Part shown: positions 36,732 through 64,000 of the stretch, piece after piece | Numbering within the stretch: position 1 is the first letter of the stretch | Layout of the letters: each line of letters opens with the position of its first letter | NCBI GenBank assembly: GCA_019429275.1 | Contig: JAHYJC010000015.1 | Span: 28,337-92,336 of the forward strand | Reading direction: 5' to 3' | Source: Lentimicrobium sp. | GTDB lineage: Bacteria > Bacteroidota > Bacteroidia > Bacteroidales > Lentimicrobiaceae | DNA length: 64,000 nucleotides | The notes under the pieces: generated by a model | The model's database searches: none | Told to the model about the DNA's origin: nothing | Seen by the model: only the letters and a program-made list of their open reading frames with translations | Translations under genes and position numbers: made by a program

Positions 36732-39700
36732 TTATTTTTTCAGGATAATTTTTCTGATGGTTTCTCCTCCATCCTCAAACTTAATTTTTACAAAATATAC
36801 TGACTCAGAAAGGAATTTTAAATCAGCTTTTAGCTTTCTAACCGGTTGGTCCGAATGGATTTCCAGCAAAATGTTTCCAGTTAACCCGTTTATTATCAAT
36901 GATTTGATTCCTTTTCCAGGTGATTCTGATTCTATAAAGAGTTCTCCCGAAGTAGGATTCGGATAAAGCCTGAGTTTTGTGAAATCCTGATGGTCAACAC
37001 TCACCACCTGCTGGAATCGTGCAATAAATGTCCTGTTGCTGTTTACGATAAAAGAAATAACCGGATTATCAGAAAAGAAGTTTTCGTTTTCTAACCAATC
37101 TATGAATGTAAAATTTTGATTAGCTATTGCCTGAAGTTCTGCTGTTTCACCCTGATTATATATACCTGACCCTCTGGTGTATCCCCCTTCTTCAGGATAT
37201 GCGTAAGCGCTTACCTCAAAAAACTGAATAAAGTGAGCAACGAATTCACGGTTATTTGTAACAAGAAAAGAAATTTCAGGGTTGGTAGCAAACACATTTC
37301 CGTTTTCGGTCCAGTTTATAAAGTCGTATCCTGTTGTGGCTGCAGCCAGCAGATTTGCCGTTGCTCCATAGGCATAAACACCTGTTCCTGCCACACTCCC
37401 GCTGTTAGCCGGATTAACCGAAGCCGAAATGGTAAATTCCTGAAGTGCGAAATTCGCTGTCAGGTTTCGGTTTGCATTTACCGTAAAGGAGTAGATTGCC
37501 GATGTTGAAACTACATTTCCGTTTTCGGTCCAGTTTATAAAGTCGTATCCTGTTGTGGCTGCAGCCAGCAGATTTGCCGTTGCTCCAAAGGCATAAACAC
37601 CTGTGCCAGTTACACTTCCGCTATTGTCCGGATTTACCGAAGCCGAAATGGTAAATTCCTGAAGTGCGAAATTCGCTGTCAGGTTTCGGTTTGCATTTAC
37701 GGTAAAGGAGTAGTTTGCCGATGTTGAAACCACGTTTCCGTTTTCGGTCCAGTTAATAAAGTCGTATCCTGTTGTGGCTGCAGCCAGCAGATTTGCCGTT
37801 GCTCCATAGGCATAAACACCTGTTCCTGCCACACTCCCGCTGTTAGCCGGATTAACCGATGCCGAAATGGTAAATTCCTGAAGTGCGAAATTCGCTGTCA
37901 GGTTTCGGTTTGCATTTACCGTAAAGGAGTAGTTTGCCGATGTTGAAACTACATTTCCGTTTTCGGTCCAGTTTATAAAGTCGTATCCCGTTGAGGCAGT
38001 AGCCAGCAGATTTGCCGTTGCTCCGAAAGCATAAACGCCTGTTCCTGCCACACTTCCGCTGTTAGCCGGATTAACCGAAGCCGAGATGGTAAATTCCTGA
38101 AGTGCAAAATTCGCTGTCAGGTTCCGGTTTGCATTTACCATAAAGGAGTAGTTTGCCGATGTTGAAACCACGTTTCCGTTTTCGGTCCAGTTAATAAAGT
38201 CGTATCCCGTTGAGGCTGCAGCCAGTAGATTTGCCGTTGCTCCGAAAGCATAAACGCCTGTTCCTGACACACTTCCGCTGTTAGTCGGATTAACCGAAGC
38301 CGAAATGGTAAATTCCTGAAGTGCAAAATTCGCTGTCAGGTTCCGGTTTGCATTTACCATAAAGGAGTAGTTTGCCGATGTTGAAACCACGTTTCCGTTT
38401 TCGGTCCAGTTAATGAATGTATAGCCTGCGACGGGTGCTGCTGTAACCAAAATTTGAGCACCTGCAGGATAAGAGCCTCCACCGGTCGTAGTTCCTGCAT
38501 TTGAAGGGTTTGAAAATGTATTTATGGTGTATTCAGGAATAGCATTTGACAGTGAAACATCATCAATATACCAGTTATCAAACTGATAAAGATTCCCCTG
38601 AACGGTAAAGGCAACATAGGTTGTCGGAGAATTCAGATTTGATGTAATACTTGTATTCACAGTAGCTGGCCCGACAATAGAATTGGAGTTGGTGGGCAGC
38701 GACCAGGCTTCGTTGGTCCAGGCAACACCATTGGTGCTTGACTGAATTCTGAGGGTGGCTCCCGGACCATAATCGTCAAGCATGTGTTTGAAACTCAGGT
38801 TCAGTTGAATTATACCCGTTGTATTGATTGCAGGAGATACCAGCCTGTTGGTGCCGGGATTGACATTCTGATAAGTTAACATCATCTCACCGGCTGCACC
38901 ACCTGCATTGCTGGTTGGAGAGAAATTCCAGCTGGCAACTGTATTGGTTCCGGCTGTTTGTTGACTCCAGCAAGCCGGGAATTGTGTAAGAGTAAATGAT
39001 TCAGAAAAGGGTAATATAAATACTTCACACTGAGTTGCAGCACTTGCTGTTACTCCGTTTGAATAGGTATATGAATTGCCGATGGACCATACTTTGTAAT
39101 AATAGGTAGTCCCTGACTGAAGACCTGTATGCTCGAAGTTTTCTGCATTACCCGAATAAATAACTGTACCTCCGCCGTCAATTGTACTGCCTGGTGAATA
39201 TTGGGATCCATTTGCAGGTAATCCGAATGTATTGCTTGTGTTGAAAGCCAGCATAACATTGTTAAGTTCGGTATTTCTCGTCCAGTTGAGGTTTATCTGA
39301 GAAACTGAAACTGCTGTAGCTGTAAATCCGGAAGGATCGGCAACATTGCTGAATCCTACTGTAAAAGAAATGGTGCTTCCGGCTGAAGAAATGTCGTAAA
39401 TGTTTAATCCTCCCGGACTTCCGTTCTGCAAAAAAGAAGAAGGATTTGTGCCGTCATTGATGGTTGTTCGTCCTGTTTGCTGAGAGAAATGGGCATTTGA
39501 AGGACTTCCGTTGGTTGTAGTGGTACCGTTTGGTCTGTAAATGTAGACTTCATCGGGCGGACCAGAAGCATTCCCGTTATAATCCGGATCAATTCTGTAA
39601 ACCAGCAAACCAGTTCCAGGAATGGCTGACTCATAAGTTCCGGTTTTTTGTCTATATTCAACCATGAAGTATTCATCAGGCGAATAAGGAGAGGCGATTT

Positions 39701-40859
39701 TATAACAATTGTTGGTCGGAGTGGTGATCGGATTCAGGGTATAGGTGCCCGATGTTGTGATTTGCGGGATGCTGCTTATCCAGGTGTTACCGGTATATTT
39801 CCATTTCATGTATGTACCCATATGTCCTGAGCCGCCATCCATAAGATCCCATGCGCCTGCAGGACTTATATTTAAACCTCCGTCGTTGTAATGATAAAGA
39901 TCGGGTGCGCCCAGAGCATGAAACATTTCGTGGCATAGCGTATAAACATTTACCTGGGTTTCCGGTTGAAACGTGTAATCCCATACCTGTTTCCCGTTAA
40001 TGTAAACATCGTAGGTATAGAGAACCCAGCGATGTGCCCATAACAGGCTGGCCCAGGCTCCGTTACCTCCTCTTATGACAAAAGAAACATTATCAACGCG
40101 CCCGTCATTATCTCCGTCAATATTCAATCCTGCGGGTACAGGCGAATTAGCATTGATCCAGTTTATGGCATCACGCAAAAGTGCATGTTCGCGCAAACGA
40201 CGGGCATTATCTCCATTATATCCTCCCGGATTTGTTGTTGCATTATAAGGCTCAAAATAACTGCGCGGATGAGAATCGGTATAGGAAAGATTTGTAGTCA
40301 TCACACATTCAGGATAATGTGATGAATTCAGCGTGAGCATTTCGTAAGAAACTTCGTTGAAATATGATTTTACTGAACTACCTGTTTCCTGATTAAAGAG
40401 GTTATCATACGTTTGCCTTGTTTCAGTAAATTCAGTATCGTTCGAAAATTTAATGTAAATGACCAGATTATTCATAGTCCCTGAGTGCGGCGCACGACCA
40501 GACCGGTTATCGCTCACTTCAAGCGCTTTTTGCCGTAAAAAGTATTCTTCCCTGTTTATTTTTATCCATTTTTTCAGCCCTTTTTCTGCCGGATCAGCTG
40601 ATCCTACGCGAAAAATGGAGGGTACAATGTTGCCCTTGTCAGATATCGCATAATAAAAGTATCCATCTTCACCTTGAATGATGGTGAAGCCTTCAGCATC
40701 ATGCAACCAGTTGAAATATTCATCTCCCGAAACAAAGCAGTCTATGACCGCTCCATCAGGCTGGATTATCTGGTAAGGTTGATTCTGAAAATAGGCTGCA
40801 TTTGTCTGCAGGCCAGCCAGCATGATAGCTGCTATAATTATAAGTATGAATTTTCTCAT
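36732..40859 (-). CDS. Secreted M6-family metalloprotease with seven tandem InlB-B/Listeria-type repeat domains and T9SS sorting signal
   Basis: MFHALGAPDLYHY (HExxH-like), FNDGT, INWTENGNVVSTSANYSFxVNANRNLTANFALQ repeats, LRLYPNPTSGELFIES C-term; start at 40859 (MRKFILIIIAAIMLAG). Confidence 0.9.
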   Translation of the reverse strand: MRKFILIIIAAIMLAGLQTNAAYFQNQPYQIIQPDGAVIDCFVSGDEYFNWLHDAEGFTIIQGEDGYFYYAISDKGNIVPSIFRVGSADPAEKGLKKWIKINREEYFLRQKALEVSDNRSGRAPHSGTMNNLVIYIKFSNDTEFTETRQTYDNLFNQETGSSVKSYFNEVSYEMLTLNSSHYPECVMTTNLSYTDSHPRSYFEPYNATTNPGGYNGDNARRLREHALLRDAINWINANSPVPAGLNIDGDNDGRVDNVSFVIRGGNGAWASLLWAHRWVLYTYDVYINGKQVWDYTFQPETQVNVYTLCHEMFHALGAPDLYHYNDGGLNISPAGAWDLMDGGSGHMGTYMKWKYTGNTWISSIPQITTSGTYTLNPITTPTNNCYKIASPYSPDEYFMVEYRQKTGTYESAIPGTGLLVYRIDPDYNGNASGPPDEVYIYRPNGTTTTNGSPSNAHFSQQTGRTTINDGTNPSSFLQNGSPGGLNIYDISSAGSTISFTVGFSNVADPSGFTATAVSVSQINLNWTRNTELNNVMLAFNTSNTFGLPANGSQYSPGSTIDGGGTVIYSGNAENFEHTGLQSGTTYYYKVWSIGNSYTYSNGVTASAATQCEVFILPFSESFTLTQFPACWSQQTAGTNTVASWNFSPTSNAGGAAGEMMLTYQNVNPGTNRLVSPAINTTGIIQLNLSFKHMLDDYGPGATLRIQSSTNGVAWTNEAWSLPTNSNSIVGPATVNTSITSNLNSPTTYVAFTVQGNLYQFDNWYIDDVSLSNAIPEYTINTFSNPSNAGTTTGGGSYPAGAQILVTAAPVAGYTFINWTENGNVVSTSANYSFMVNANRNLTANFALQEFTISASVNPTNSGSVSGTGVYAFGATANLLAAASTGYDFINWTENGNVVSTSANYSFMVNANRNLTANFALQEFTISASVNPANSGSVAGTGVYAFGATANLLATASTGYDFINWTENGNVVSTSANYSFTVNANRNLTANFALQEFTISASVNPANSGSVAGTGVYAYGATANLLAAATTGYDFINWTENGNVVSTSANYSFTVNANRNLTANFALQEFTISASVNPDNSGSVTGTGVYAFGATANLLAAATTGYDFINWTENGNVVSTSAIYSFTVNANRNLTANFALQEFTISASVNPANSGSVAGTGVYAYGATANLLAAATTGYDFINWTENGNVFATNPEISFLVTNNREFVAHFIQFFEVSAYAYPEEGGYTRGSGIYNQGETAELQAIANQNFTFIDWLENENFFSDNPVISFIVNSNRTFIARFQQVVSVDHQDFTKLRLYPNPTSGELFIESESPGKGIKSLIINGLTGNILLEIHSDQPVRKLKADLKFLSESVYFVKIKFEDGGETIRKIILKK
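37214..38520 (-). repeat. 219-bp near-identical tandem repeats inside the M6 protease gene
   Basis: GGTAAATTCC landmark at 37431, 37650, 37869, 38088, 38307, exactly 219 bp apart. Confidence 0.95.
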
Positions 40860-41014
40860 GCGGAAAATCTGAATTAACCCGCCAGGGTTGAATGGGTTTC
40901 TGTTTTCTTTTAATACATTTTTGCAGAAAATGTAATAGTTAATTTCAGGATTTGAAAATAACAATCAGCTTCTGCATATCTTTAGTTTGCAATGATTAAT
41001 GATTAGATTCTGGT

Positions 41015-51487: not shown

Positions 51488-51670
51488 ATGGCAAAGAAGA
51501 AGAACAACCATACCCTGTTTCCTGATGAAACGGAAAAACCTAATTGCCCTGTCATTTGCCCGCAGTGCGGAATGCCTTTAGAAGTTGATTTAGAAATCTG
51601 CTGGATGTGTTGTGAGAAAATTACTGCACCCGAAAAAAATATCGCAAACAACTGTCCTACAAATGAATAA
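51488..51670 (+). CDS. Small zinc-ribbon-like protein
   Basis: CPVICPQCGMPLEVDLEICWMCCEK paired Cys motifs. Confidence 0.6.
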   Translation: MAKKKNNHTLFPDETEKPNCPVICPQCGMPLEVDLEICWMCCEKITAPEKNIANNCPTNE

Positions 51671-52073
51671 CAAACCAAACACCCCACGCAAGGCCAAAAT
51701 ATCGAAACCTACAAGGGATATTGGTTCGGAAAAATCAGACATGTTTGTTAAAATAGTCAAATCAGTGAATGGACTTGATGTAGTGAAGGAATACCGGTTC
51801 ACTCCCGAAAGAAGATGGAGGCTCGACTACGCCATTCCAACTCACATGATTGCCATTGAAGTTGAAGGTGGAGCTTTCACCAGTGGAAGGCACACCCGGG
51901 GAAAGGGATTTATCGCTGATATGGAGAAGTACAATGAACTTACCTGCCTTGGTTGGTCGCTTATCCGGGTAACACCCCAAAACCTACTCACATCAAAAAC
52001 ACTCGAAAACGTTCATAGATGTGCTGAAAACTATAATTTCTTAGTAAAAAATTACCATAGTGGTAGTTTTTGA
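51663..52073 (+). CDS. Putative VSR/DUF559-like endonuclease
   Basis: RRWRLDYAIPTHMIAIEVEGG..RHTRGKGFIADMEKYNELTCLGWSLIRVTPQ (D-ExE pattern). Confidence 0.7.
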   Translation: MNNKPNTPRKAKISKPTRDIGSEKSDMFVKIVKSVNGLDVVKEYRFTPERRWRLDYAIPTHMIAIEVEGGAFTSGRHTRGKGFIADMEKYNELTCLGWSLIRVTPQNLLTSKTLENVHRCAENYNFLVKNYHSGSF

Positions 52074-52109: not shown

Positions 52110-52748
52110 ATGTCAGAAGAATTAAAAATCATCTACCGGCAGCTATCTGAACTGATTGAGCCTGATTACAACCCTCGCAAAATATCAGCAAAACAGAGGG
52201 AGGAAATTAAGAAGTCCCTGATGAATTTCGGTTTCGTGCAACCGCTTGTGGTCAATATGCACCCGGAAAGAGAAAACATTGTTATCGGTGGTAATCAGAG
52301 GAAGAAGATAGCCGAAGCAATGGGACACGAAACTGCACCCTGTATCGAAGTAAATCTTGACCTCGAAAAGGAGAAGGAGCTTAACCTTAGGCTGAACAAA
52401 AATCAGGCTGAATTTGATGTTGACCTGCTGAACGAATTCTTTGACCGGGAATTCCTTTTTGACATTGGATTTACTGAAAAGGAAGTCGGTAAACTCGAAA
52501 GTGAGTTTGACCAAAAATTCAATGCAATCACGAATGATGAAGCTGAAATGCCGATTGTTCCTAAGTTCAATGAGAAGTACAATTCCATTATCATTTTCTG
52601 CAACAATGAGTTGGACTTCAATTGGATTCGCAATGTCCTCAAACTTCAAAGGCACAAGGACTACAAAAATTCAAGAGTTGGCGAAGCACACGTTTTGACT
52701 GTTCAGAATTTTCAGGAGATTTGGGAGGAGGCCGTTAACCATGAATAA
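52110..52748 (+). CDS. ParB N-terminal (ParB/Srx)-domain protein
   Basis: LIEPDYNPRKISAKQREEIKKSLMNFGFVQPLVVNMHPERENIVIGGNQRKKIAEAMG. Confidence 0.85.
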   Translation: MSEELKIIYRQLSELIEPDYNPRKISAKQREEIKKSLMNFGFVQPLVVNMHPERENIVIGGNQRKKIAEAMGHETAPCIEVNLDLEKEKELNLRLNKNQAEFDVDLLNEFFDREFLFDIGFTEKEVGKLESEFDQKFNAITNDEAEMPIVPKFNEKYNSIIIFCNNELDFNWIRNVLKLQRHKDYKNSRVGEAHVLTVQNFQEIWEEAVNHE

Positions 52749-53484
52749 GATACCTGTTGTTTGTCCGAGCAAAGGCCGCTTCAACAATGTAAAAACCCTG
52801 CAATTTTTCCCTGACCTTGTCCTTGTCGTGCCACACTACGAAGTCGAACAATACAAGGAGAATTACCCTGATACCGAAGTAATCGGCACTCCAAAACACA
52901 TCAAAGGGATTACACCAACAAGGCAATGGATTATTGAGCAATGGGACGATGTCTTTATGATTGATGATGATGTTGAAGCAGTAAGAAGGAACTTTACCCT
53001 CCCGAATGAGGAGTACAATATTGAAGATTCTGTTACTGTCAGAGATATTCTTGAAACTACCGCAGGCATCGCTAAAGATATTGGCGCAAAGGTCTATTCC
53101 TTCGGCAAAGTCAAAAACCCTCTTGAGTACAACTCCTTCAAACCGATTGACCATGTTGGCTACATGAATGCTTCGTTTTGTGGATTCATGAAAGGGCATG
53201 GACTTAGTTACGACCTCTCAATGTCAGAAGGAGAAGATCATTACATATCCTGCCTGACGATTTACAAGCACCGGTATTGCCTTATCGACAACAGATACAC
53301 CTTTCAAACGCAAGGTAACTTCAAAGCATTGGGCGGTTGTAATGACTACCGAACCCGGGAAAGCATGATCAAGAACACCCTATACCTACGCAAGAAATTC
53401 GGAGAAGTTATCAAATTCAAAGAAGCAACCGCAATTAAGAAGAACGTCAATTTTGGCGAAAGGTCACTCATATTCCCGTACTGA
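52741..53484 (+). CDS. GT-A-fold glycosyltransferase resembling TET-associated (TAGT)/GREB1-like phage glycosyltransferases
   Basis: VVCPSKGRFNNV..ITPTRQWIIEQWDDVFMIDDDVEAV (PSKGR and DDD motifs). Confidence 0.65.
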   Translation: MNKIPVVCPSKGRFNNVKTLQFFPDLVLVVPHYEVEQYKENYPDTEVIGTPKHIKGITPTRQWIIEQWDDVFMIDDDVEAVRRNFTLPNEEYNIEDSVTVRDILETTAGIAKDIGAKVYSFGKVKNPLEYNSFKPIDHVGYMNASFCGFMKGHGLSYDLSMSEGEDHYISCLTIYKHRYCLIDNRYTFQTQGNFKALGGCNDYRTRESMIKNTLYLRKKFGEVIKFKEATAIKKNVNFGERSLIFPY

Positions 53485-54254
53485 TGAAAATTCTGATCTG
53501 CATACCTTCAAAAGGAAGGCCGTATGACCTCAAAACTACTGAATGGCTCGCTAAATGCTCCCTGCCTGAAAACTGCCATGTAAAAGTATTCGTTGAACCT
53601 CAGGAGAAACGGTATTACAACCTTTCCCTGCCAAAGAAAGATTGGCTGTTTACGCTCCCTGAAAATGACAGAGGGAAAGGATATGCCATGTTTATCGCTA
53701 CTCAATACGCCAAAGAAAACGGCTACGATTTGCAGTTTTTCATGGACGATGATATTAACGGATTCATTGATTTCAGGGCAAAGTCGGCTTTCAAGGTCGA
53801 TGTTTTTAACAACCTGCTCAGAGATATACCAACTGCCTTTGAGAATGATGAAAAACTCGGACTTGTCAGATTCCTTTCAGCCCGGGCCTTCTACTTCGTC
53901 AAAAACAAACAGCAGCAATTCGTGTACAAAAATCAGGGTGCCTGGGGTACGATGTTAGTCAGAACCAATCAAAACAAAATCTGCCCTGAGATTACTCACT
54001 ACGACGACACCGCTATTCAACTCTACCTATGGAGAGAAGGATTCCACGCCCTCACATACGGACTTGCAGGAGTTAATGTCGAAGTCTATACCAACAAAGG
54101 AGGTTACCAAATCCGGGACAGAAAAAAAGATGCCGAAGATGCTATTGAATTCCTGAAAAGGGATTTTCCAAAAGTATTCATGAAGTCAGCAACCCACACT
54201 CTCGGTTACGATATTGATATTGAAGCATACAAACCCAAAACAGAAAACCTGTAA
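53484..54254 (+). CDS. Second glycosyltransferase of the same apparent family
   Basis: ICIPSKGRPYDLKTTEWL..NGYDLQFFMDDDINGF; starts in TGATG overlap with upstream gene. Confidence 0.65.
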   Translation: MKILICIPSKGRPYDLKTTEWLAKCSLPENCHVKVFVEPQEKRYYNLSLPKKDWLFTLPENDRGKGYAMFIATQYAKENGYDLQFFMDDDINGFIDFRAKSAFKVDVFNNLLRDIPTAFENDEKLGLVRFLSARAFYFVKNKQQQFVYKNQGAWGTMLVRTNQNKICPEITHYDDTAIQLYLWREGFHALTYGLAGVNVEVYTNKGGYQIRDRKKDAEDAIEFLKRDFPKVFMKSATHTLGYDIDIEAYKPKTENL

Positions 54255-54916
54255 TGACCGTTGACGTTATCATTCCTGCAAACAGCAAAGACTATATGAG
54301 CCTTATTACTACTGCAGCCTCAATCAGAAGCCTCAGAAGTTCAAGTAGCAATATACAATTCAATGTTATTGTTGTCGAACAAAACAAACCCACTTCACAC
54401 CCTCTTGCCGACAAAGTGCTGAATTATGACTTCGACTTCAACTACAACAAAGTGCTTAACCTCGGATTGAAAAACAGTTCAGCCAAATACGCACTACTCT
54501 GCAACAATGATTTGATTTACCACACAGGTTTCTTTGAGGCCTTGCTGCAGGTATTCCGGACAGGCTACAAATCACTTTCCCCTACCAATCCACTCAGAAG
54601 CCTATACACCCACAAACCTATTGTCGAAGGCTACGGAGTTAATCATGACCTGATGGGTTGGTGCATCGCTGTTGAACGTGATATGATTGAACGTATTGGC
54701 TACTTTGACGAAGGAGTTTCCTTTTGGTACTCCGACAACCTGTATGCAGACCAACTCAAACACCATAACATCAAACACGCAAGAGTTACCAATTCATTTG
54801 TCTTTCACATCGGCTCAGGCTCGTCAAGCCTCAGAAATCTTACTCCTGAACAGAAGGCAGAATACACCACAAAACAAAAACTTATTTACGAAAATGCAAG
54901 GAAAAAGTATAAATAA
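54254..54916 (+). CDS. GT2-family glycosyltransferase
   Basis: VDVIIPANSKDYMSLITTAASIRSL, YALLCNNDLIYHTGFFEALL, GWCIAVERDMIERIGYFDE; TAATG overlap with upstream gene. Confidence 0.75.
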   Translation: MTVDVIIPANSKDYMSLITTAASIRSLRSSSSNIQFNVIVVEQNKPTSHPLADKVLNYDFDFNYNKVLNLGLKNSSAKYALLCNNDLIYHTGFFEALLQVFRTGYKSLSPTNPLRSLYTHKPIVEGYGVNHDLMGWCIAVERDMIERIGYFDEGVSFWYSDNLYADQLKHHNIKHARVTNSFVFHIGSGSSSLRNLTPEQKAEYTTKQKLIYENARKKYK

Positions 54917-54973: not shown

Positions 54974-55615
54974 ATGAAACAACAAGTATTGACGATCAAT
55001 GGCTATGACCTTTTTGAATGTGTTTCAGCACTTCAAAAGGAAATTCGCAGGTGCAATGAAAAGGAAGCAATGTATTGGGCTGTTGAACTGTACAACTCCG
55101 GTTACGCTCCTTATGTTTGGAAACGGCTTGTCATAATTTCAACCGAAGATATTGGACTTGCTTATCCGATGGCTCCGGTTATAATCAATGCCCTGCAAGT
55201 TCAATTCGAAAAACTTTCTGAAAGACCTGATAAGAAGAAGCAATGCAGACTGCCATACGTTCAGGCAGTATTGTTTCTTACTAATGCTCCCAAAAGTAGA
55301 CACACCGATTGGGCTTTGAATTACCACTTCGACAGTCATTGGTTCGTTGATATGAATAAGAAGGAAATTCCTGATTATGCCATTGACATTCACACCCGGA
55401 AAGGAAAGGCAATGGGTAAAACAATCAACAACTTCTTTGAAGAAGGAAGTTACGTAGCCAATCATAAACTACTCAATAACGAGGAGTTCTATAAAAATGA
55501 ATGCAGAAGGCGTTGGAATAGCCAGGAATGGATTGCCGTTGCAAAACAGAGAAGTGCTGAATTTGAGAATCGAAATAACAATCCCTCTACACAAGGAGAC
55601 TTATTTTCAAGTTGA
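54974..55615 (+). CDS. Orphan RarA/MgsA C-terminal-domain-like protein (no AAA+ domain)
   Basis: YDLFECVSALQKEIRRCNEKEAMYWAVELYNSGYAPYVWKRLVIISTEDIGLAYPMAP..VLFLTNAPKS parallels RarA C-terminal region. Confidence 0.65.
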   Translation: MKQQVLTINGYDLFECVSALQKEIRRCNEKEAMYWAVELYNSGYAPYVWKRLVIISTEDIGLAYPMAPVIINALQVQFEKLSERPDKKKQCRLPYVQAVLFLTNAPKSRHTDWALNYHFDSHWFVDMNKKEIPDYAIDIHTRKGKAMGKTINNFFEEGSYVANHKLLNNEEFYKNECRRRWNSQEWIAVAKQRSAEFENRNNNPSTQGDLFSS

Positions 55616-55621
55616 CAAAAC

Positions 55622-56038
55622 ATGACAAAAGCAGTTAAAAAGGCTTCCGCAAGGAGGCCTTCAGTCAAAAGAAGACAACAGGCATTTTTGGAGGCCTACG
55701 ACAAATCTCTATCCAACGTATCTATGGCCTGCAAGGTTGTTGGTATCAGCCGCAATGCTTTTTACGAATGGTGCAAGAAGTACCCTAAATTCAACCAACA
55801 GATCATTGATTTTGATGAAAGCAATATTGATTTTGCCGAAACAATGTTGATGAAAAACATCAGGGAGCAGAAAGAAGCTTCAATCTTTTTCTACTTAAAG
55901 ACCAAAGCGAAGGCCAGAGGATACGTTGAACGGCAGGAGTTTGAGCACGGAGGCTCCGATGCTTTCATTGAAGCGATGAAAGTTGCAAGTAAACTCAGAA
56001 GGCAAATGGAAGGACAGCAAGCCGATGAATCAAATTGA
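55622..56038 (+). CDS. Terminase small-subunit-like protein
   Basis: HTH region SNVSMACKVVGISRNAFYEWCKKYPKFNQQI; directly upstream of TerL with overlapping ORF. Confidence 0.75.
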   Translation: MTKAVKKASARRPSVKRRQQAFLEAYDKSLSNVSMACKVVGISRNAFYEWCKKYPKFNQQIIDFDESNIDFAETMLMKNIREQKEASIFFYLKTKAKARGYVERQEFEHGGSDAFIEAMKVASKLRRQMEGQQADESN

Positions 56039-57548
56039 GTTTGCCGAAAACATTCTTTACTATCAGGAGGATTGGTGCAGGTTTGCCCGGGACATTCTCC
56101 GAATCAAGTTGGACCCGCAGCAAGAAGCTATCCTGAGAGGCGTACAGCATAACAAAATGGTAACTGTTCGTTCAGGTACTGCAAGAGGCAAGGACTTTGT
56201 CGCTGCTGCTGCTGCCTTATGTTTCCTATATCTTACACCTGACTTTGACGATGAAGGAGAGATGATTGCCTCTACCAAAATTGCCCTTACTGCTCCTACA
56301 GGCCGACAGATAAAAAATATCATGATGCCTGAAATAACCAAAATGTATAACAGGGCAAAATTCCTTCCCGGCAATCTGATGTCTGACGGGATCCGTTTTG
56401 ACTACTTCAAAGATTGGTTTCTTGTTGGTTTCAAAGCAAGTGATTCACCCGAAGCCTGGTCAGGATTTCACGCAGTAAACACGATGTTTGTCATTACTGA
56501 AGCTTCGGGTATTCCTGAAGTAATATATGAGGCAATCGAAGGTAACTTGCAGCAAAACAGCCGAATGTTGTTGGTATTCAATCCAAACACTACAACCGGT
56601 TATGCTGCTTCATCGCACAAATCCGCACGTTTCACGAAGTTTCGTTTAAGCTCCTTAGATGCTCCAAATGTACTTGCCAGAAAAACTATTTTTCCCGGGC
56701 AGGTCGATTATGAATGGATTTGCGACAAGGTAAACCAATGGTGCACTACCATTCAGGAGAGGGATTTTAACGAAGGAGAAGGCGACTTTCGCTTTCAGGT
56801 ACCCGAAAAGCCTGAACTGCTATACCGGCCAAATGACCTGTTCCGTATCAAGGTGCTTGGAATGTTTCCCAAAGTTTCAGAAGATGCTCTTATTCCTATC
56901 AATTGGGTTGAACTTGCCAATCAGCGGTGGATTGAAAAAACTGAATATCTTGACAGGGAGAATTTAGGCCCCAAATCTTTAGGCGTTGACGTTGCCGGAA
57001 TGGGAAGGGATTCAAGTGTACTCTGTCACAGGCACGGAAGCTATGTTTGGAAGTTTGACGTTCATTTTGCAGCAGGCAAGGCAGATCACATGGCCATATC
57101 AGGAATGGTAGCAAATGCCCTCAAAGTAGACCCGGAGAACAAGGCTTTCATCGATACTATTGGAGAGGGAGCAGGAGTTTATTCAAGGCTGATTGAACTT
57201 GGGTATGACAACGCTTTTTCCTGCAAATTCTCGTCAGGAGCGAAGGGACTGAATGACATTACCGGAGTGTACAAGTTTGCCAACCTCCGGGCATACCTTT
57301 TTTGGTGTGTAAGGGATTGGCTTAACCCTGCCAACAATAACGATGCTTGCCTACCATTAGACGACCAATTAATTGAAGAAGCAACCGCAATAAAATGGAA
57401 GTTTCAGTCCGATGGTTCAATCATCATTGAACCGAAGGAGGACATCAAAACCCGTTTAGGCCGGTCAATCGACAAGTTTGACGCACTTGCAAATACTTTT
57501 TATCCTGCAGGTAAAAAAACGGTTGACTTGTCAAAGATATTCTTTTAG
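56025..57548 (+). CDS. terL: Phage terminase large subunit
   Basis: MVTVRSGTARGKDFVAAAAALCFL (Walker A-like), VITEASGIPEVIYEAIEGNL, GVDVAGMGRDSSVLCHR nuclease region. Confidence 0.88.
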   Translation: MNQIEFAENILYYQEDWCRFARDILRIKLDPQQEAILRGVQHNKMVTVRSGTARGKDFVAAAAALCFLYLTPDFDDEGEMIASTKIALTAPTGRQIKNIMMPEITKMYNRAKFLPGNLMSDGIRFDYFKDWFLVGFKASDSPEAWSGFHAVNTMFVITEASGIPEVIYEAIEGNLQQNSRMLLVFNPNTTTGYAASSHKSARFTKFRLSSLDAPNVLARKTIFPGQVDYEWICDKVNQWCTTIQERDFNEGEGDFRFQVPEKPELLYRPNDLFRIKVLGMFPKVSEDALIPINWVELANQRWIEKTEYLDRENLGPKSLGVDVAGMGRDSSVLCHRHGSYVWKFDVHFAAGKADHMAISGMVANALKVDPENKAFIDTIGEGAGVYSRLIELGYDNAFSCKFSSGAKGLNDITGVYKFANLRAYLFWCVRDWLNPANNNDACLPLDDQLIEEATAIKWKFQSDGSIIIEPKEDIKTRLGRSIDKFDALANTFYPAGKKTVDLSKIFF

Positions 57549-57550
57549 TT

Positions 57551-58963
57551 TTGCCCCATGATGGTAATTTTATGAAACAGATTTCAGACATTTTAAACCA
57601 AAGTCCTGAGAACATTGTCAAGGCTATAAAAGCCTCCGAAAAGGAAGTTGACAGGAAAGAAATAAGTGCTCAATACGACCCTTCCATGCACGATGTTATG
57701 ATCTCTTACAAGAGAAAAAACAAAAGAGCGATGGACGGGAAAGGAGGTGTTAAGGAGGTCTCTGTTGCAAGGCTTTCCATTCCTTTTCAAAAGATCATTG
57801 TGAACCGGGCTGTTGCCTTCTTATTCACAAATCCTGTATCAATTACGCTTGCAGACCAAACGGCTGATGATACAGCTTTGACGATGATTCAATACCTTCT
57901 AAAGAAGAATAAAAGTAGCTCGTTAAACCGTGAAATTGCCAGGGCTTTGTTCAGTGAAACCGAAGTTGCAGAATATTGGTACCCTGTTGAAGATAAAGCC
58001 TTTTGGAAGAAAGCCAAACTTGAAAAGGTTGGAGATTACCGTTTACGTTGCCGGATATTCAGCCCTTCAAGAGGAGATACCCTCTATCCTGTTTTTGACG
58101 AGTTTGACGACATGGTTGCCTTTGGGAGAGGATACACCATAGTTGAAGGAGAGAAGAATGTAAAAACAGAATATCTTGACCTGTTTACGAATGATTTCAT
58201 CAAACGCTACAAAAAGGACAAGGAATTAGGTTGGATTGAAGAAATCAGCACTCCGAACATACTCAGCAAAATTCCGGTTGTTTACTATTCTCAGGAAGAA
58301 GCTGAATGGAGTGATGTTCAAAGCATGATTGACCGTTTAGAAACTTTGATCTCAAACTTTGCAGACACGAATGATTACTTTGGCAGTCCGATGGTGAAAG
58401 TGAAAGGAACCGTTACCGGTTTTGCTGAAAAGGGAGAGCAAGGCAAAGTGATTACCGTATCAGAGGGAGGCGATGCCGAATACCTGACATGGTCCAACGC
58501 TCCAGATACAATCAAGTTGGAGATTGACACCCTGCAAAACTTCATCTACTCAATGACACAAACCCCGGACATTTCGTTTAAAGCTGTTCAGGGTATTACA
58601 AACATATCAGGAATTGCATTGAAGTTGTTATTCCTTGACGCTTATCTGAAGGCTCAGAACAAGCTCGAAATCTTTGATGAAGCCATGACACGAAGGCTGT
58701 CAATCCTGAAATCTTACTGCTCCAAATTCAACGTAGCGAAGGAAACAATCATTCTCGATACAGAAATTGAGGCAGTTATCACACCTTACATTCCTGAAAA
58801 TCTTAAAGAGACAATTGAGATGCTTTCCGCTGCAACCGGAGGCAAACAAATACTCTCACAATCAAAGGCTGTTTCCATGACCGGCCTTGCTGATGATGCA
58901 GTTAAAGAAATGGAAGAAATTTCAAAAGAATTAGTCAATACCATAGGAGAAACTTTTGTATGA
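57551..58963 (+). CDS. Phage portal protein (SPP1 gp6-like)
   Basis: Position after TerL; IPFQKIIVNRAVAFLFTNPVSI, NDYFGSPMVKVKG, TPDISFKAVQGITNISGIALKLLFLDAYLKAQNK. Confidence 0.85.
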   Translation: MPHDGNFMKQISDILNQSPENIVKAIKASEKEVDRKEISAQYDPSMHDVMISYKRKNKRAMDGKGGVKEVSVARLSIPFQKIIVNRAVAFLFTNPVSITLADQTADDTALTMIQYLLKKNKSSSLNREIARALFSETEVAEYWYPVEDKAFWKKAKLEKVGDYRLRCRIFSPSRGDTLYPVFDEFDDMVAFGRGYTIVEGEKNVKTEYLDLFTNDFIKRYKKDKELGWIEEISTPNILSKIPVVYYSQEEAEWSDVQSMIDRLETLISNFADTNDYFGSPMVKVKGTVTGFAEKGEQGKVITVSEGGDAEYLTWSNAPDTIKLEIDTLQNFIYSMTQTPDISFKAVQGITNISGIALKLLFLDAYLKAQNKLEIFDEAMTRRLSILKSYCSKFNVAKETIILDTEIEAVITPYIPENLKETIEMLSAATGGKQILSQSKAVSMTGLADDAVKEMEEISKELVNTIGETFV

Positions 58964-62507: not shown

Positions 62508-62957
62508 ATGAAAAAGTACAAATCATCAATCAGCAGGTTCAGGATAGTATCCGAACCAACAACCTTCCCGAAGGCGCAAATCAAGTCAAGCAGAGATGCT
62601 GCTGACTTCATCAAAGACCTTTGGGAGGACGATATTGAAGTATCGGAGAGTTTCTACGCCTTGTTTCTTAATAGGGCCAACAATACTTCAGGCTATGCCA
62701 AACTAAGTAACGGAGGAATTAATGGAACAATCGTTGAACCATTATTTATCCTGAAGTATGCAGCAGACTTGCTTTCAAAGTCAGTCATTCTTTTTCACAA
62801 TCACCCCTCAGGGAGTCTTTCGCCAAGCGATGCTGACAAGAAATTAACTGACAAAGTAAATGCGATGTTAAAATTTGCAGATGTCACGGTTATTGACCAC
62901 GTAATCCTTGGTCTTGAAGATAGATATTTCAGCTTTGCCGATGAAGGGTTGATTTAG
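62508..62957 (+). CDS. RadC-like JAB/MPN-domain protein
   Basis: ILFHNHPSGSLSPSDADKKLTDKVNAMLKFADVTVIDHVILG. Confidence 0.9.
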   Translation: MKKYKSSISRFRIVSEPTTFPKAQIKSSRDAADFIKDLWEDDIEVSESFYALFLNRANNTSGYAKLSNGGINGTIVEPLFILKYAADLLSKSVILFHNHPSGSLSPSDADKKLTDKVNAMLKFADVTVIDHVILGLEDRYFSFADEGLI

Positions 62958-63033
62958 CCGGTTACAAGTCCGGATTGAATTGTGAGTAGCCCCGCCAGGC
63001 GGGGTGTAAACAAACCTTTAACAACAGCAACAA

Positions 63034-63902: not shown

Positions 63903-64000
63903 ATGAGTAAAGAAAATTCAATAGACCTGCTAAAGTTTTTCCTAAAGGAAATGTTCCAGTTCAATGCCAATGATCTTGACTTTGGAATTTACAGGATATA
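63903..64000 (+). CDS. N-terminus of a Mod-like (type III-like) site-specific DNA methyltransferase; truncated by window end
   Basis: MSKENSIDLLKFFLKEMFQFNANDLDFGIYRI..., the LDFGIYRI N-terminal signature recalled from Mod-like adenine methylases. Confidence 0.6.
   Translation, partial: MSKENSIDLLKFFLKEMFQFNANDLDFGIYRI

Follow-up and report, generated by a model that had tools for sequence, protein, structure and literature searches.

A ParB-linked TAGT glycosyltransferase cassette ahead of the terminase genes of a Lentimicrobium prophage, a candidate DNA-glycosylation module

Described TAGT systems and the make-up of the Lentimicrobium cassette

The closest described counterparts of this locus are the TAGT enzymes of phages T2 and T6 (beta-glucosyl-HMC-alpha-glucosyltransferases, PF20691). 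According to PMC13216743, with which PMC13390438 agrees, the T6 TAGT glucosylates cytosine that is already glucosylated, and its model in PMC13216743 is a GT-A fold nearest to a GT2-family structure. T6 also has a dCMP hydroxymethylase and an alpha-glucosyltransferase, and a ParB partner is not described there. Solitary TAGTs, accompanied by neither an alpha- nor a beta-glucosyltransferase, were reported from 288 of 753 phage genomes (PMC13216743), and the available portions of that paper describe for them neither a ParB partner nor a position near the terminase genes. Comparable arrangements are found in phage TET/JBP-TAGT clusters, in ParB-DNA methyltransferase fusions of the phrog_498 type, and in an Escherichia coli prophage pair annotated as ynaK (ParB/Srx) and as a GREB1-related or hypothetical protein.

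The cassette studied here lies on the plus strand of a 64,000-nucleotide stretch of a Lentimicrobium sp. contig (JAHYJC010000015.1), referred to as the window. It begins with a ParB-like protein of 212 aa (52110–52748; PF02195 1.1e-6, 29 bits against a cut-off of 26.3; phrog_620 3.2e-33; phrog_498 1.8e-29, the last match covering the N-terminal ParB part of that DNA methyltransferase family). This is followed by GT1, a TAGT glycosyltransferase of 247 aa (52741–53484; PF20691 4.3e-19; phrog_842 3.4e-28), GT2, a second, divergent TAGT of 256 aa (53484–54254; PF20691 4.9e-10; phrog_842 6e-17), and GT3, a GT2-family-like glycosyltransferase of 220 aa (54254–54916; phrog_22332 2.2e-20; PF00535 0.011, below the cut-off). 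A first-pass annotation had placed the four ORFs in overlapping start/stop register, and both the coordinates and the junctions were verified in the sequence: ParB and GT1 overlap by 8 nt, with the GT1 ATG at 52741, 5 nt ahead of the ParB TAA at 52746–52748, and the next junctions are TGATG (GT1/GT2, 53482–53486) and TAATG (GT2/GT3, 54252–54256). Contrary to that annotation, the cassette does not directly abut terS; the ORF of an MgsA_C-domain protein (213 aa; 54974–55615; PF12002 1.9e-12) stands between GT3 and the terminase small subunit gene, terS (55622–56038; phrog_4044 4.9e-8). The terminase large subunit gene, terL (55983–57548; phrog_2 2.9e-32), and the portal protein gene (57551–58963; PF05133 5.2e-48) follow on the same strand. 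Compared with T6, the cassette is without base-preparing enzymes and couples two TAGTs and a GT2-like enzyme to ParB. An ORF just 5′ of ParB (51612–52073) matches phrog_503 (2e-33, function unknown) and, weakly and below the cut-off, an MTES_1575 nuclease domain (0.0016).

Both GT1 (69.7 bits) and GT2 (40.1 bits) score above the curated gathering cut-off of 27.5 bits for PF20691, and their matches to phrog_842, the beta-glucosyl-HMC-alpha-glucosyltransferase family, agree with this assignment to TAGT, the family of the T2 and T6 enzymes. The PSKGR and DDD motifs noticed earlier are indeed found in both proteins, DDD being residues 75–77 of GT1, and this triplet together with a later D and a GG is near-invariant across 24–27 homologues (alignments A5 and A7). 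Of the earlier grouping of all three enzymes as related glycosyltransferases, TAGT membership is borne out for GT1 and GT2, but one common type for all three is not supported: a Pfam profile search gave no PF20691 match for GT3, which lacks the DDD motif and reaches 16.1 bits against PF00535 (cut-off 23.3). On these scores, GT3 is classed as a distant GT2-family-like enzyme and not a TAGT. The predicted structure of GT1 (pLDDT 87.5) has a GT-A fold, as in T2 and T6, and its PDB fold neighbors are TarP and other GT-A enzymes, protein and teichoic-acid glycosyltransferases among them; this is consistent with the T6 TAGT model in PMC13216743. Among viral proteins, the folds that match GT1 best belong to TAGTs, those of Ralstonia phiRSL1 and Klebsiella PKO111 among them. 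Searches of PDB sequences with the TAGT profiles and with GT3 gave no matches. The ParB model is good to about residue 120, and Foldseek matched it to Noc, ParB-CDP and sulfiredoxin (ParB/Srx fold). The extra C-terminal region of ParB, once suggested to be an enzyme, comprises about 55 residues with a low-confidence alpha/beta model, and its small size and model argue against a hidden enzyme. No ParA-like gene was noticed adjoining ParB, and a Pfam scan of the cassette proteins gave no match to the Mom/GNAT-phage-like family (PF22559).

The element is read as a prophage because RecT-like, exonuclease VIII-like and replication-initiation-like genes lie 5′ of the cassette, and two minus-strand genes at 45.3–45.9 kb are phage-repressor-like. 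Because the contig stops at window base 64000, most of the late genes of the prophage are outside the view. The only TAGTs in the whole assembly are GT1 and GT2.

Conservation of the cassette and of its ParB-TAGT core

The complete order ParB-TAGT-TAGT-GT3-MgsA_C-TerS-TerL was found again in two viral contigs (L087 and L088). The four cassette genes of the window each share 68–73% identity with those of L088, with pN of 0.17–0.22 and pS of 0.77–0.94; these pS values are saturated, and only the direction of the difference, pN below pS, counts. The comparison indicates that the four genes evolve under purifying selection, which together with the recurrent order argues that they are not chance ORFs. 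Shorter versions also exist, with two TAGTs and MgsA_C without GT3 (L034, L178, L203 and L204) or with one TAGT and MgsA_C (L176, L181, L187 and L189). The MgsA_C protein is a recurrent neighbor of ParB-TAGT in phages of Bacteroidota, and its ORF is kept at the same position in L034, L035, L037, L088, L176, L178, L181, L187, L189 and L204.

A survey of phage records, viral contigs and genomes yielded 143 distinct TAGT ORFs, each of at least 200 aa. A ParB-like ORF on the same strand overlaps the TAGT or lies at most 60 nt upstream in 125 of the 143 (64 clusters at 70% identity), a share that is not a census, since relatives of the query alignments are over-represented among the ORFs sampled. 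The 18 unpaired ORFs include 10 that are the second copy of a tandem pair and one at a contig end. Where the sequence continued for 3.5 kb or more past the pair, a recognized TerS and/or TerL was found within 3.5 kb downstream at 73 of 90 paired loci. The pair is carried by phages of Bacteroidota, Firmicutes, Proteobacteria and Archaea, including Lactobacillus phi jlb1 and c5, Haloarcula HHTV-2, Streptococcus Javan291, and Escherichia and Porphyromonas prophages; a paper on HHTV-2 leaves its TAGT and ParB unmentioned. Apart from one deletion product described below, no ParB-TAGT gene fusion was seen among the surveyed loci. In one contig, the TAGT directly after ParB (L077:6498-7898) has an N-terminal extension that reads by eye as a P-loop (GPSCSGKST) kinase-like domain, making a nucleotide- or DNA-kinase fused to a glycosyltransferase possible.

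At 68 loci with ParB, TAGT and TerL, ParB and TAGT tree distances were correlated (rho 0.56; none of 299 permutations as high), whereas TAGT and TerL distances were not (rho 0.06; 60 of 299 permutations reached this value). By this measure, ParB and TAGT co-vary in descent and TAGT and TerL do not, although the neighborhood and co-descent of ParB and TAGT may partly reflect physical linkage. The terminase as a dedicated glycosyltransferase substrate is disfavored by the absence of TAGT-TerL co-descent.

Other occupants of the position before the terminase genes

The window ParB matches 152 phage records, 91 of them Streptococcus phages, and most of the matches listed fall in genes whose annotation is an adenine-specific or other DNA methyltransferase. 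In Streptococcus Javan122, a ParB-methyltransferase fusion and a C5 methyltransferase precede terS/terL, and ParB-TAGT takes the position of these methyltransferases in Javan291. The fusions thus share with the window a homologous ParB N domain and the same slot before terS/terL, but in them the methyltransferase is fused to ParB, whereas the window has separate glycosyltransferases. Javan535 has a related TerL and neither ParB-TAGT nor the methyltransferase fusion.

Among 35 viral contigs with a TerL of the window lineage, about 10 have ParB-TAGT, and 13 have a protein of 677–695 aa adjoining or near ParB. Two of these 13 proteins were profile-scanned, that of L180 giving amidoligase and GNAT-phage-like domains and that of L177 a phage amidoligase family, and the remaining ones are homologous by phmmer. 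A further protein, in L183, combines DAM-like and GNAT-phage-like domains alongside ParB. As judged from these profile matches, Mom-like GNAT proteins with ParB hold the same slot in relatives. The protein at L180:2823-4907 and its 12 homologs are long amidoligase/GNAT-phage-like-related proteins upstream of TerS. Alanine-dehydrogenase-like, octopine-dehydrogenase-like and ATP-grasp genes were also observed in the ParB-linked slot of related phages (L177:4360-5574 and L186:3496-5951).

The order ParB-TAGT-Tet_JBP-TerS-TerL occurs in four contigs (L006-L009), which have in common with the window cassette the ParB-TAGT overlap and the place before terS/terL; in the window, the TET/JBP gene is replaced by the second TAGT, GT3 and MgsA_C. 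A longer cluster (L037:5907-13069) encodes a UDP-galactopyranose mutase, a GNAT protein, ParB, a PylC-like ATP-grasp protein, a TAGT and an ornithine/DAP-type PLP decarboxylase, followed by MgsA_C and TerS. ATP-grasp and decarboxylase proteins similar to these flank a TAGT in L193, and by its gene content the L037 cluster, like the similar one of L193, suggests a base hypermodification pathway of several steps. Judged by these gene neighborhoods, ParB is the partner shared by several DNA-base-modifying chemistries in a single slot, and it is mainly for this reason that DNA is named below as the target.

Proposed function, competing readings and dispensability

We consider it probable that the cassette is a ParB-guided prophage DNA-glycosylation module with an anti-restriction role, in which GT1 would add the first sugar and GT2 and GT3 would extend it. 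DNA is the likeliest target because in relatives the slot is occupied by ParB-TAGT-TET, by fusions of ParB to adenine methyltransferases, or by ParB together with Mom-like GNAT proteins. The first-pass annotation had suggested glycosylation of phage DNA or another target; the slot evidence bears this out as far as a ParB-linked phage DNA-modification cassette is concerned, and from there we infer the glycosylated DNA itself. In the proposed mechanism, the ParB-like protein would be the DNA-engaging, targeting subunit and would work with GT1, encoded in overlap with it. With a nucleotide-sugar of the host as donor, GT1 would place the first sugar on a base of the replicated phage DNA. In the presumed order of addition, GT2 and GT3 would then extend or diversify this sugar, just as glucosylated hmC receives a second glucose from the T6 TAGT. 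The modified DNA would be packaged by the adjacent terminase and may resist host restriction.

The absence of TET, hydroxymethylase and C5-methyltransferase genes from the cassette was borne out by profile searches, but its characterization as unusual was not, as the neighborhoods of homologs make such absence the rule for ParB-TAGT pairs. Only four related contigs gave a Tet_JBP match: L006 and L009, which served as positive controls, and L007 and L008, by a home-made profile. Tet_JBP was absent from an 18.7-kb viral contig with a window-type cassette, from 8 named phage records and from 30 larger viral contigs, although such viral contigs may be incomplete; the host assembly gave no match either, in a search in which the control genomes also gave none. 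No hydroxymethylase of the thymidylate-synthase fold was found in 11 related records, and the host assembly has one ordinary thymidylate synthase, on another contig. Of 38 records, 2 have a C5 methyltransferase (PF00145); one is Javan122, where the ParB-methyltransferase fusion replaces TAGT, which leaves a single case among 37 TAGT-bearing or window-type records. These counts weigh against a hydroxymethylated acceptor base prepared by an oxygenase or hydroxymethylase encoded elsewhere (by the host, by a helper phage or by the prophage beyond the contig end), while the ParB-TAGT-TET order of L006-L009 in the same place, and the end of the window contig inside the prophage, speak for it. This remains a minority reading in our judgment, and it is a form of DNA glycosylation and not an alternative to it. 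The acceptor is possibly a canonical base. Held just as tentatively is the idea that ParB and TAGT are a self-sufficient system placing a sugar directly on such a base with no prior hydroxymethylation, for example on the exocyclic amine of adenine, guanine or cytosine, by analogy with Mom and the N6/N4 methyltransferases; if so, such a system would occur across tailed viruses of bacteria and archaea, and many E. coli prophages would have it. The pathways from which TAGT enzymes are known begin by making a hydroxymethyl base, whereas the commonest arrangement here is a ParB partner with no such enzyme, and glycosylated DNA would imply either new acceptor chemistry or the use of host-made marks.

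GREB1-type relatives of TAGT glycosylate protein, and with the cassette in the packaging module, no enzyme making a hydroxyl acceptor, and protein and teichoic-acid glycosyltransferases among the PDB fold neighbors of GT1, the substrate might instead be a protein of the phage or of the host (capsid, portal, terminase or the ParB protein). We regard this as unlikely, since TAGT descent is uncorrelated with TerL, phages of archaea and of Gram-positive and Gram-negative bacteria have the cassette next to terminases that are unrelated, DNA methyltransferases and Mom-like genes can take its slot, and the nearest viral fold neighbors of GT1 include a DNA-glucosylating TAGT. Many prophage glycosyltransferases change surface polysaccharide, and GT3 is GT2-like, so alteration of the lysogen surface (serotype conversion or superinfection exclusion) was also considered; it is very improbable given that GT1 and GT2 are TAGTs, that no flippase or membrane partner was seen beside the genes, and that the pairing with ParB and the place before terS/terL are fixed.

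Returning to DNA glycosylation, the window holds a credible candidate cassette for it, which enlarges on a ParB-TAGT pair that is itself widespread. The E. coli prophage pair has the same ParB-TAGT-terS-terL order, with a single TAGT of the canonical long type and without GT2, GT3 and MgsA_C. At least 80% of this pair is matched in 887 of 5426 complete E. coli genomes (about 16%), and intact pairs are fewer than 887 because some ynaK copies are marked incomplete. The Rac prophage of K-12 keeps only a truncated ParB, YnaK (L209:2501-2764, W3110 Rac prophage), which over 86 residues shares 97.7% identity with the ParB of phage vB_EcoS-683R6. In Lactobacillus phage Ld25A (L051:3-512), an in-frame deletion joins the ParB N-terminus to the last 46 TAGT residues, which argues that the pair is accessory. 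With Javan535 lacking the cassette and the truncated K-12 ParB, this indicates that the cassette is optional. With copies in common E. coli prophages, a truncated one in Rac and a dairy phage that carries a natural deletion, the question can be tested directly.

Elsewhere in the prophage, an ORF at 62982–63392 matches phrog_7245, "anti-restriction protein" (1.8e-5), and adjoins a phage DNA-repair-like ORF (62508–62957). In the host part of the window, a minus-strand ORF of 1410 aa (36732–40964) has, by eye, a metalloprotease-like N-terminus and long near-identical repeats (NRNLTANFALQEFTISASVNP...).
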